Below the pieces are notes generated by a model. It was not told where the DNA came from and made no database searches. It saw nothing but the letters and a program-made list of their open reading frames with translations. Both the position numbers and the translations under genes were made by a program. Below, piece after piece: positions 10,759 through 30,004 of a DNA stretch of 32,000 nt (its first letter is position 1; every line of letters starts with the position of its first letter). Source of the DNA: Candidatus Pacearchaeota archaeon (GTDB lineage: Archaea; Nanobdellota; Nanobdellia; Pacearchaeales; GW2011-AR1); the NCBI GenBank assembly GCA_016186425.1, contig JACPLR010000018.1, positions 1-32,000 on the forward strand, given 5' to 3'.

Positions 10759-10893
10759 CTTTTTATTTACTTTTATTCCGCTTAACTATTAATACTTTTT
10801 TAATACTTTATTTATACTAATATTAGTATTTAAATGTTATTATTGGCATGAATATGCCTTAATCCCAAGTTAATTAAAACCTCTTAATCCATA

Positions 10894-11151
10894 AAATATT
10901 AATATATCAAGCGAATAAATCATGTAAATTTTTCTCCTATTAAAAGGAAAATTTGATAAAGAAAATTATTACATTTAAAGGAGATGTCATAAGAAGAACC
11001 TTGGTTCTTTTTATAAAGGAAAGTTTGATAAATGGTTGCTGGATGCATAGAAACCCGCTGGAGGTTTTTATATTGGTTGCCCTTATTATTGCAGTATTTT
11101 CAAAACTATTCTGAAATCATACTATACCTTTGCCTAATTTAGATGAGAAAG
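10894..11151 (+). repeat. Intergenic palindromic element, array-bearing form
   Basis: 10894-11071 is identical to 26027-26204 except one base; right part matches other copies (GCAGTATTTTCAAAA...CTGAAATCATAC...CTTTGCCTAATTTA). Confidence 0.85.
10977..11014 (+). repeat. 38-bp hairpin unit, copy 1
   Basis: AAAGGAGATGTCATAAGAAGAACCTTGGTTCTTTTTAT, identical at 18630, 21031 and 26110. Confidence 0.95.
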
Positions 11152-11219
11152 TGTCTGATACTTCATTAATCATTAATTTCAATAATCTAATATTCTGTAA
11201 GTCACATACTTTAAACTAA

Positions 11220-18556: not shown

Positions 18557-18708
18557 TGCCCCCACCGGGATTCGAACCCGGGTCTAAGCCTTTCTTCTTT
18601 TTTCCATTATAGGGAAATGTCCTCTCTCAAAAGGAGATGTCATAAGAAGAACCTTGGTTCTTTTTATCAACGAAAGGGCTTGATGCTTGGCCTCTACACC
18701 ATAGGGGC
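18557..18708 (-). tRNA. tRNA-Glu(TTC) with ~79-nt intron at 37/38 (about 18592-18670)
   Basis: Acceptor GCCCCTA/TGGGGGC, anticodon stem AAGCC/GGCTT with loop CTTTCG|A, T-arm CCGGG-TTCGAAT-CCCGG. Confidence 0.92.
18630..18667 (+). repeat. 38-bp hairpin unit inside the tRNA-Glu intron (opposite strand to tRNA)
   Basis: AAAGGAGATGTCATAAGAAGAACCTTGGTTCTTTTTAT, exact match to intergenic copies. Confidence 0.95.
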
Positions 18709-19197: not shown

Positions 19198-19250
19198 TTT
19201 TTATTAAAATAATTATATTATTTAAATTTATTCTTTTTATCTGTTTACTA

Positions 19251-19436
19251 TTAAAAGGAGAGTTCGTAAAGGGAACCATTGCTATTAAAAGGAAAGTTTG
19301 ATAAAGAAAACCTTTGGCACTTAAAAGGAAAGTTTGATAAAGAAAACCTTTGGCACTTAAAAGGAAAGTTTGATAAAGAAAACCATTGGTTGTCTTTATA
19401 GGAGATGTCATAAGAAGAACCATTGGTTCTTTTTAT
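19251..19436 (+). repeat. Tandem array of 5 hairpin units abutting the 3' end of tRNA-Ile
   Basis: Core unit TTAAAAGGAAAGTTTGATAAAGAAAACCTTTGGCAC (period 36), then a full-hairpin unit ending GGTTGTCTTTAT and a variant of the 38-bp unit. Confidence 0.9.
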
Positions 19437-19439
19437 AAA

Positions 19440-19575
19440 TGAGCCTGCGCGGATTTGAACCGCGGACCCCCGCCTCTCTTAGATTTTCTTTTCTATGAAA
19501 GGAGCATTCCAGTGTTAACACGCTGAAACACACTCATATAAGAGCGGTGCTCTAACCAGGCTGAGCTACAGGCTC
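19440..19575 (-). tRNA. tRNA-Ile(TAT) with ~61-nt intron at 37/38 (about 19476-19536)
   Basis: Acceptor GAGCCTG/CAGGCTC, D-arm GCTCAGCCTGGTTAGAGC, anticodon stem CCGCT/GGCGG with loop CTTATA, T-arm CGCGG-TTCAAAT-CCGCG. Confidence 0.88.
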
Positions 19576-20971: not shown

Positions 20972-21135
20972 ATCATGCTAAATTTTTCCTATTAAAAGGA
21001 ATGTTTGATAAAGAAAAACATTGGCACTTAAAAGGAGATGTCATAAGAAGAACCTTGGTTCTTTTTATTATTTACTATTGTAAGGATTCATAATATATTT
21101 TAAAAATAATGTAATATCTTTGCCTTATTTACTAG
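20972..21135 (+). repeat. Intergenic palindromic element, array-bearing form
   Basis: TCATGCTAAATTTTTCCTATTAAAAGGAATGTTTGATAAAG..., 38-bp unit at 21031-21068, terminal AATATCTTTGCCTTATTTA. Confidence 0.8.
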
Positions 21136-26026: not shown

Positions 26027-26373
26027 AAATATTAATATATCAAGCGAATAAATCATGTAAATTTTTCTCCTATTAAAAGGAAAATTTGATAAAGAAAATT
26101 ATTACATTTAAAGGAGATGTCATAAGAAGAACCTTGGTTCTTTTTATAAAGGAAAGTTTGATAAGTGGTTGCTGGATGCATAGAAACCCGCTGGAGGTTT
26201 TTATTTTCATAAAGAAAACCATTGGCATCTAAAAGGAAGGGTTGATAAGGGTAAACCATTGGCATCTAAAAGGAAGGGTTGATAAGGGTAAACCATTGGT
26301 TGCCCTTATTATTGCAGTATTTTCAAAATATTTCTGAAATCATACAATATCCTTGCCTTATTTTAATGTGAAA
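26027..26373 (+). repeat. Intergenic palindromic element, longest array-bearing form
   Basis: Shares 178 bp with 10894-11071, then extra 37-bp units AAAAGGAAGGGTTGATAAGGGTAAACCATTGGCATCT and terminal GGTTGCCCTTATT. Confidence 0.88.
26110..26147 (+). repeat. 38-bp hairpin unit, copy 4
   Basis: Exact match to 10977, 18630 and 21031 copies. Confidence 0.95.
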
Positions 26374-26511
26374 GTTGCTTAAATCTTATCAGTTAATCTA
26401 AAGAGATTATTATCCACTTTAAAGAGACTTCACTAAATTTAAAAGCAGGGGAAAGATAATAATTAATTTTTTCCCATTGGAAAAACTTAAATAAAAGAGA
26501 ATATTGATAAA

Positions 26512-27597
26512 ATGATAAAAAAGGGGGCGGGAATGGATCAGAAAAAAGAGATGCAGACAACTATAATTGAAATAAAGAATAATCAGCAGGCTACAAAAGA
26601 GGAATTTCTCAGTATATTAAGGCTTGTTGCTCCAGGAACAAATTTAAGAGCAGCACTTAACGGAATTGTTGAGGCAAAAAAGGGCGGCTTAATGATTGTT
26701 GAAAATGAAATTGTGCATCAAGTTCTGGATGGAGGATTTAAAGTTAACTGCAGGTTCACTCCTCAAAGGCTTATAGAGCTTGCAAAAATGGACGGGGCAA
26801 TAGTTCTATCAAATGATATGAAAAGAATAACTTATGCAAATGTAACTCTTGCTCCAGACAGCAGAATACCAACCAAAGAAACCGGAACTCGTCACAAAGC
26901 AGCTGAAAGAACTGCAAAAATGACAGGAACACTTGCAATAGCTGTTTCTGAAAGAAAAAACGAGATAAGCCTCTACTATAAGGACATCAAATACCATGTA
27001 AGAAGCACTGCAGAAATATTACGAAGAGCTACTGAAACACTTCAGATACTTGAAAAGCAAAGAGAATTATTTGATATTAATCTGACGAAGCTCAACCAAA
27101 TGGAGTTAAATAATGACCTAAGCTTAAGGCAGGCGTGTAAGGTAATACAAAGAGGGAAAGCAATGGAAAAAATTCTTGAATCCCAGGAAAAAACGCTGAT
27201 AGAGCTTGGAAACGAAGCAATACCATTGAAATTAAGAATTAAGGAACTAATGAAAGATGTTGAAAGAGAAATAGATTTTGTAATTAAAGAATACACAAAG
27301 CTTAATTTAAAAAAATCAGAAAATATTCTTGAAAGCCTGTCTTACGAAGAGCTTTTGGATACAGAAAATATAATGATTGCCCTGGCCCATAAAGAAGAGG
27401 CGGGTCTTGACTCGATAAAGGGCTGGAGATTGCTGTCAAAAACAAGTTTGGAAGAAAAAGATATAGCAAATCTAGTATCAAAATTCCAGAGTTTAAATAA
27501 TATAATTAACGCAGAGTTGCATGAACATAAACAAATCCTTGGTGATGAAAAAGCAGGAACATTTGCCAAAGAACTTCAGAGATTCAGGAATTTGTAA
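26512..27597 (+). CDS. disA: DisA-type diadenylate cyclase (c-di-AMP synthase) with linker and C-terminal HhH-like region
   Basis: LRLVAPGTNLRAALNGI, LAKMDGAIVLSNDMKRITYANV, SRIPTKETGTRHKAAERTAKMTG; C-terminal GWRLLSKTSLEEKDIANLVSKFQSLNNII...ELQRF as in DisA. Confidence 0.92.
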   Translation: MIKKGAGMDQKKEMQTTIIEIKNNQQATKEEFLSILRLVAPGTNLRAALNGIVEAKKGGLMIVENEIVHQVLDGGFKVNCRFTPQRLIELAKMDGAIVLSNDMKRITYANVTLAPDSRIPTKETGTRHKAAERTAKMTGTLAIAVSERKNEISLYYKDIKYHVRSTAEILRRATETLQILEKQRELFDINLTKLNQMELNNDLSLRQACKVIQRGKAMEKILESQEKTLIELGNEAIPLKLRIKELMKDVEREIDFVIKEYTKLNLKKSENILESLSYEELLDTENIMIALAHKEEAGLDSIKGWRLLSKTSLEEKDIANLVSKFQSLNNIINAELHEHKQILGDEKAGTFAKELQRFRNL

Positions 27598-27837: not shown

Positions 27838-28046
27838 AATCCAGCTTAAAAATTATCTAAAGATATTGCAGTAATTTAAAAATCATTTAAAGGAGGGGTT
27901 GATAAGGGTGAACCTTTAAATCATTTTTAAAAATCATTTAAAGGAGGGGTTGATAAGGGTGAACCTTTAAATCATTTATGATTTTTAAATCCATTAGGAT
28001 TTTGGTGCCCTTTATACTATATTCTTGCCTAACTTTTATGAGAAAG
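27838..28046 (+). repeat. Intergenic palindromic element, 51-bp unit form
   Basis: Two 51-bp units TTTAAAGGAGGGGTTGATAAGGGTGAACCTTTAAATCATTTTTAAAAATCA, terminal TATTCTTGCCTAACTTTTATGAGAAAG. Confidence 0.75.
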
Positions 28047-28880: not shown

Positions 28881-29090
28881 AATCGGGCATAAATTTTCCT
28901 TTAAAAAGGAAAGTTTGATAAAGAAAACCTTGGTTCATCTAAAAGGAAAGTTTGATAAAGAAAACCTTGGTTCATCTAAAAGGAAAGTTTGATAAAGAAA
29001 ACCATTGGTTGTCTTTATTATTTATTATATATTTTCAAAAAGTTCTTAAATCTCCACAATATCTTTCCCTATCTTATATGGGTAAATTTC
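28881..29090 (+). repeat. Intergenic palindromic element, array-bearing form (3 units)
   Basis: Three AAAAGGAAAGTTTGATAAAGAAAACC units at 37-bp spacing (28902-29019), last ends with full hairpin ATTGGTTGTCTTTATT; right end CAATATCTTTCCCTATCTTATATGGGTAAA. Confidence 0.85.
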
Positions 29091-29188: not shown

Positions 29189-30004
29189 ATGGAAAGGAGG
29201 GAATTTTTAATTTTTAGCGCTTTATCTTTAGGCATTCCTTTATTTTCCAATGCAGATGAATCTATTGAACCAAGTGAACTAACATTAAAACAAAAAATAA
29301 TTGTCAATCTTCCAACTTACTCTCTAAAATTATATGAAGATAATGAATTAAAAGAAGAATATCCGTGCAGAATAGGAAAACCAAGAACTCCTACACTTAT
29401 TGGAAAAGGCAAGATAATAGAAAAAAAACCGCAAGTAATTTTTAGGTATCTTTCAGGAGAAAGAAAAGGAAGAGTAATAAGATATAGCTATTTAGATCCT
29501 GAGAAAAGAACAATAAAAATGCCATATAGGGATATGAGGGGCCTAGGTTTTGAGATAAATGGAATAATGAATGGAGCTGTGATACATTCAACAACAGATT
29601 ACTGGACAATAGGAACTGCAAGGTCTCATGGCTGTATAGGCGTCAAAATCGATGACATGTTAAAGCTATACGAAGCAGTTCATGATGGCCCTCTTCCTGA
29701 ATTTGAAACTACTTATCAAACATTATTTTTTGACAAAGAAAAAGGAGATTTAACAATTTGGTGCGATATTTACAATAAAGGAACAAATAATGCAAAATCC
29801 CTGGTAGAAATATTAAATGAAAATTTAGCTAATGCAGAAATAAAAAATCATGAAAAAATCAGTGAAAAACTAAAAGAAATAGATAAACAGCTAAAGGCAG
29901 GCAATAGCGAGATACAAAAAATCATTGATCAAGGAAAAGATCCAAAAGATATCTTAAATAAACTGCATACAAGCTTTCCATTAGAAAAATTATTATCAGA
30001 GTAA
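29189..30004 (+). CDS. L,D-transpeptidase (YkuD) family protein with Tat-like signal
   Basis: GAVIHSTTDYWTIGTARSHGCIGVKIDDMLKLYE catalytic His/Cys motif; N-terminal MERREFLIFSALSLG. Confidence 0.9.
   Translation: MERREFLIFSALSLGIPLFSNADESIEPSELTLKQKIIVNLPTYSLKLYEDNELKEEYPCRIGKPRTPTLIGKGKIIEKKPQVIFRYLSGERKGRVIRYSYLDPEKRTIKMPYRDMRGLGFEINGIMNGAVIHSTTDYWTIGTARSHGCIGVKIDDMLKLYEAVHDGPLPEFETTYQTLFFDKEKGDLTIWCDIYNKGTNNAKSLVEILNENLANAEIKNHEKISEKLKEIDKQLKAGNSEIQKIIDQGKDPKDILNKLHTSFPLEKLLSE

Follow-up and report, generated by a model that had tools for sequence, protein, structure and literature searches.

Near-identical arrays of a REP-like hairpin element in a Pacearchaeota genome: probable ectopic gene conversion

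DPANN archaea with small genomes are generally considered lean. In Rickettsia and Wolbachia, small palindromic repeats (RPE) are tolerated at the edges of genes and tRNAs and are occasionally translated. Literature searches turned up no paper on the repeats of Pacearchaeota or of DPANN archaea. In the available portions of two papers, REP sequences fall into the GTAG and CGTC superfamilies and are associated with RAYT transposases (PMC3733652, PMC6006769). As depicted there, they resemble the element described here, a multi-copy intergenic palindrome of 20–40 bp: both are high-copy, imperfect hairpins of several types, single or clustered, lying near gene ends, with one strand that folds. The window, by which we mean the whole 32,000-nt stretch analysed, is all of contig C6 of a Pacearchaeota genome of 868,632 bp in 29 contigs, about 88% complete. 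This 0.87-Mb genome nevertheless holds ~100 hairpin elements and, as a second repeat, an outer one in ~160 copies.

The REP sequence is the nearest known kind of element. Unlike in REP sequences, neither a GT[AG]G nor a CGTC tag marks the foot of the stem, the conserved 5′ part of the element being AAGGA..TTS and CGTC occurring only in the E type; no RAYT or Y1 gene is flanked by element copies in this about 88% complete genome; and its arrays consist of repeated left arms and a single right arm. Its host belongs to the Pacearchaeota, a lineage absent from the available portions of the REP papers (PMC3733652, PMC6006769). The element works like a REP but is not filed as one here, because the GTAG/CGTC tag and the transposase were looked for and not found. 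With IS200/IS605 and their non-autonomous derivatives it shares a strand-specific mismatched hairpin and an orientation trend with replication-type skew, but it is one hairpin and not two ends, and no target tetranucleotide was found. The genome has a single Y1 transposase (C19:42477), with no listed element within 1 kb; its end hairpins are unrelated to the element, on which ground an IS200/IS605 origin was rejected, and among relatives the presence of Y1 does not track that of the element. Like MITEs, the elements are short, non-coding and dispersed, with empty sites in relatives, but terminal inverted repeats and target duplication are not demonstrated for them. From RPE, as generally described, it differs in being shorter, in forming tandem mosaic arrays and in living in another host domain. 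The Y1 gene itself (C19:42477–42821) encodes an intact IS200-type TnpA and has end hairpins of its own; close by (C19, 43519–46083) lies a reverse transcriptase that by eye looks like part of a diversity-generating retroelement, beside a possible variable protein.

Two blocks of the window, 10894–11071 and 26027–26204 (the 10.9k and 26k loci), are identical at 177 of 178 positions by direct reading, the sole mismatch being a at 11032 against g at 26165. A repeat search also recovered the pair, in two pieces of 203 nt (94% identity) and, to the right, 81 nt (88%), so that both approaches bear out the near-identical 178-bp pair with one mismatch reported in an earlier note on this DNA. Chance is not a candidate explanation for such identity. 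Weak similarity extends leftward of the 10.9k block to ~10872, and the right tails of the two loci agree at 88% over 81 nt, after which similarity drops. The arrays and their surroundings are composed as follows.

10872–10937, plus strand: left part of the outer intergenic repeat, matching the 26k copy exactly from ~10894 rightwards, the left edge of the copy tract
10938–10977, plus strand: A-type left unit without a right arm of its own, the complementary arm TTTTTCTCCTATT lying before it (sequence, unit family)
10978–11014, plus strand: complete B-type hairpin element AAGGAGATGTC-ATAAGAAGAACC(TT)GGTTCTTTTTAT (stem covariation)
11015–11032, plus strand: A-type half unit AAAGGAAAGTTTGATAAA, broken by the X element (sequence)
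11033–11071, plus strand: X-type hairpin element TGGTTGCTGGATGCATAGAAACCCGCTGGAGGTTTTTAT (relatives in other matches)
11072–11087, plus strand: orphan G-type right arm ATTGGTTGCCCTTATT (sequence)
11083–11172, plus strand: right tail of the outer intergenic repeat, outside the copy tract (flank comparison)
18631–18667, plus strand: B-type element within the intron of a tRNA gene (18557–18708, minus strand, 152 nt overall)
19245–19436, plus strand: mosaic array of C-like, A, A, A and B units
20979–21068, plus strand: an A-like left unit and a complete B element forming an array within a copy of the outer repeat
26027–26204, plus strand: second copy of the 178-bp block (direct reading, repeat search, BLAST)
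26205–26294, plus strand: 90 bp missing from the 10.9k locus, comprising a half unit TTTCATAAAGAAAACC and two 37-nt units ATTGGCATCTAAAAGGAAGGGTTGATAAGGGTAAACC (sequence, tandem repeat)
26295–26310, plus strand: G-type right arm closing the 26k array (sequence)
27875–27976, plus strand: H-type left unit GGAGGGGTTGATAAGGGTGAACC in two exact 51-bp copies
28897–29018, plus strand: array of three A units ending in a single A right arm, with an outer repeat tail after it

The earlier note had also placed an array-length indel beside the block, with extra GGGTTGATAAGGG units at 26k and an orphan right arm at 11072–11087, and both were confirmed. The 26k copy carries 90 bp that the 10.9k copy lacks, a 16-nt half unit followed by two 37-nt units in tandem, after which the same right arm follows at both loci. 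A BLAST search of the block against its own genome gave 53 matches, so further copies do exist; framing the case as two loci understates a family of ~100 copies in an outer repeat of ~160. Looking for target-site duplications in the flanks, as had been proposed, yielded none for the whole block. Rather than a private duplication, each block is an array of a dispersed hairpin element.

This element is ~39 bp long and consists of AAGGA-N6/7, a 12-bp stem with a 2–3-nt loop, and a closing arm ending in TTAT. In a stem-based alignment of the elements, the conserved stretch begins at AAGG, 12 nt ahead of the stem, and closes with the terminal TTAT, delimiting an element of 37–40 nt; neither flank is conserved, and the flanks of different elements are unrelated to each other. 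A structure-based scan of the 0.87-Mb genome, covering all but ~1.5 kb of contig ends, found ~100 complete hairpins. They sort into about nine distinct stem types: 32 are B, 30 A, 13 D, 8 C and 8 E, others belong to minor types, and X comes in addition. An array strings together several left units, often of mixed types, and closes with a single right arm corresponding to the last unit. The H-type units at 27875–27976 have an outer stem, TTTAAAGG/CCTTTAAA, in place of the usual right arm.

Pairing in the stem was compared across 12 pairs in 23 distinct stems from this genome and other Pacearchaeota. Stem cells were paired in 94.9% of cases, against 89.2% in shuffles (0 of 500) and 50–61% when slid, and 26 double-change cells were observed against 10.7 in shuffles (0 of 500), comparisons that kinship among the stem types can inflate. 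Primary anchors were used to gather the stems, which leaves the fixed outer pairs uninformative, but not the inner ones; three inner pairs (columns 6–22, 7–21 and 8–20) show 6 to 11 double changes each. On the plus strand there are 21 G-U cells against 1 A-C cell, and since G-U is common and A-C nearly absent there, the AAGG strand is the one whose folding was kept. The stem is maintained by paired changes on one strand. An Rfam search matched only tRNAs and no known structured RNA.

The history of the two loci was followed in a same-genus relative, Candidatus Pacearchaeota archaeon RIFCSPHIGHO2_02_FULL_31_29 (G001), which shares 591 reciprocal best hits with this genome at a median amino-acid identity of 84%; its survey covered all but 935 bp of C13. 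At both orthologous sites in G001 (C33:11410–11685 and C15:20923–21260) the outer repeat is present and the array is absent. In short windows of 30 nt, the stretch directly left of the array is identical between our two loci (30/30), each of which matches its own ortholog at 24/30 and 21/30, respectively; in the next 30 nt outward the order is reversed, the loci agreeing at 18/30 and the orthologs at 26/30 and 27/29. To the right of the array, the 26k tail goes with its own ortholog, at 28/30 in the second window of 30 nt. The copy tract thus has a sharp left edge at ~10894/26027, where paralogous identity exceeds that to the orthologs, as in ectopic conversion, and a less sharp right edge, within the array or up to ~25 nt into the tail. 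Since the tract takes in the left outer-repeat flank and ends in or just after the array, it speaks for ectopic gene conversion and not for a clean insertion; with array-free orthologous sites and a sharp left copy edge, such conversion best explains the pair. The earlier proposal of recent copying or gene conversion is supported accordingly. The array would have been copied between outer repeats, with the direction from 10.9k to 26k slightly favoured, and the difference in array length would be a separate event. Of the unit loss by repeat recombination also proposed earlier, the unequal array lengths stand; the loss step itself may have taken place, but the ends of the indel, TTTTTAT/TTTCAT and AAACC/ATTGG, share no direct repeat. 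A simple deletion at 10.9k is not certain, because its junction, TTTTTAT/ATTGG, recurs at C19:11752, with a different right arm there. At a third locus, C8:12489–12609, 121 bp of the block recur with 94% identity, and TTTSATAAAG comes after X as it does at 26k; this points to the longer form, that of 26k, as the one closer to the original.

Two other accounts of the near-identity fare poorly against this comparison. A block of 178 bp is longer than a common short read, and in a draft genome of 29 contigs one locus might have been given the sequence of the other during assembly; we consider this very unlikely, as both flanks of each locus are syntenic with G001, the copies differ by one base and 90 bp, and the C8 locus holds a partial block of its own. 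The 36–38-bp units do stand in tandem, which would suit tandem-repeat slippage at each locus with chance convergence of the modular parts, but the identity spans the non-repeat outer flank and four module types in the same order, and the flank comparison with the orthologs already disfavours this account, to which we give almost no credence.

The element is restricted to one archaeal family and its near kin. With a covariance model it was detected in 44 of the order's 180 genomes that were searched, of which 42 belong to the same family; across 119 genomes of the phylum the model gave no hit outside the family. In an exact pattern scan of 84,980 species, the matches listed were mostly from Pacearchaeota and Nanoarchaeota, and the bacterial ones among them were mainly perfect palindromes. 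A stricter form of the pattern had no exact match in 2.9 million viral contigs, leaving viral carriage unsupported.

Within the genus, element presence differs between the sister genomes at most sites: syntenic gaps hold elements in both genomes in 12 cases, only here in 36 and only in G001 in 14, the presence/absence polymorphism at syntenic sites of close relatives that characterizes mobile elements. In the 12 shared gaps the orientation is always the same and the type often different. The last hairpin at C12:15774 is of B type here and A type in G001, both arms having changed together, and concerted swaps of this kind also occur at C4:57570 and before the MADILKS gene. Near-empty sites are found before uL11, where an array here corresponds to adjoining genes in G001, and at C21:41770. 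Empty sites reveal no consistent target duplication; the X element in its A unit has TTTSATAA on both sides, and the left flanks of elements are A/T-rich without a consensus target.

Placement relative to genes is asymmetric, in that right ends, and not left ones, adjoin start codons, convergent stops and tRNA-intron edges. Right ends lie 0–8 nt before an ATG in 17/117 cases and at the stop codons of convergent genes in about 17/117, left ends lie at such gene edges in at most 3 cases, and 82/117 elements are at neither start nor stop. Besides the tRNA-intron element at 18631–18667, a tRNA gene with an intron (19440–19575, minus strand) has its 3′ end 4 bp away from the B right end of the 19245–19436 array; another intronic element lies at C23:57361–57515, and two more are apparent by eye at C19:26323 and C19:16175, without confirmation by Rfam. 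Both tRNA genes in the window have long introns (152 and 136 nt overall). The uS3, L37ae, SMC and MADILKS genes are preceded by an element whose type differs between species. Element orientation anticorrelates with the GC skew of the contig in both genomes, with rho −0.54 (p 0.009) here and −0.48 (p 0.014) in G001, a trend partly confounded with gene orientation. Gene-edge placement can mean tolerance, targeting or use.

Many arrays are housed in the outer intergenic repeat, of which 159 copies were counted genome-wide; examples in the window are 11083–11172 and 26306–26400. It is strongly polar, keeping one orientation per contig whatever the direction of the genes (C29 19/0, C4 12/0, C20 14/1, C3 1/11, C23 2/13). 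The polarity sum is 129 against 42 expected, with a maximum of 75 in 20,000 simulations; in G001 it is weaker, at 75 against 44 expected and a maximum of 71. This polarity resembles that of replication-strand-linked sequences.

For the family as a whole, spread as a folded single strand is best supported, because the stem is strand-specific, empty sites exist and orientation shows a trend. The element would move or multiply as a folded single strand, possibly handled in trans by some host or mobile-element enzyme; recombination would then reshuffle the arrays, swapping element types while left and right arms stay complementary. Copies may persist where insertion is harmless, mainly at exact gene edges, and some of these may have been recruited as 5′ leaders. 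Taken jointly, conversion of the array between outer repeats and a hairpin family that spreads as a folded strand, is reshuffled in its arrays and is kept where harmless at gene edges form a reading that we hold to be probable. That the family constitutes an undescribed class of archaeal mobile DNA, an untagged 39-bp hairpin without known transposase that spreads as a folded strand, has its right foot exactly at gene boundaries (start codons, stop codons, tRNA intron edges) and grows as left arms of different types stack up before one right arm, is possible, though less likely than not.

Regulatory roles compete with this reading of the family. If the elements were 5′ leaders that regulate translation or transcription of the downstream gene, selected before ribosomal and other housekeeping genes and with the other copies as by-products, the 20 elements that end 0–8 nt before an ATG, often that of a translation gene, would be accounted for, as would the different-type element that orthologs in other Pacearchaeota carry at the same place. 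Recurrence before the same genes (uS3, L37ae, SMC) and the gene-edge position likewise fit regulatory selection, and some elements lie in a small leader ORF with a stop overlapping the ATG, in 5/16 cases against 99/1428 for genes without an element (p 0.004). Against this, 82/117 copies are at neither start nor stop, many exist in only one of the two sister genomes, a similar number adjoin stops in antisense, and most pre-ATG copies lack a leader ORF, the open frame in some being a minor feature. Use as a leader has support before some start codons and does not cover most copies; as a general explanation we regard it as unlikely. Transcription terminators at gene ends would suit the A-rich 5′ arm, the CC..GG, the T-rich 3′ arm and the about 17 right ends at convergent stop codons, but the transcribed strand of those genes is the one without conserved pairing, the G-U pairs being on the other strand; equally many copies stand immediately upstream of start codons, a place where termination would be harmful, and several sit in tRNA introns or at tRNA ends, so that this function is highly improbable. 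A promoter role for TTTSATAAA as a TATA box was rejected, the leaderless promoters of the genome being TTTAWAAA at −29 and the commonest type, B, having no box, as was a coding repeat, since in most arrays the reading frame is lost through 2/3-nt loops and units spaced at 36, 37 and 38; the open frame occurs only in some pre-ATG copies.

The genome has enough close relatives for gain, loss, conversion and type switching to be followed, and offers a natural system in which to study the spread of palindromes without a transposase among archaea and their possible recruitment as leaders of ribosomal genes. In G001 (C43:17491–17733) a B element carries in its loop a ~43-nt insert of two further hairpins, and the ortholog here is without it. 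The window also encodes a DisA-type diadenylate cyclase (Pfam DAC and DisA-linker; 26512–27597) directly downstream of the 26k array in this archaeal host, and a protein with a YkuD L,D-transpeptidase domain (29189–30004), likewise in an archaeal genome.
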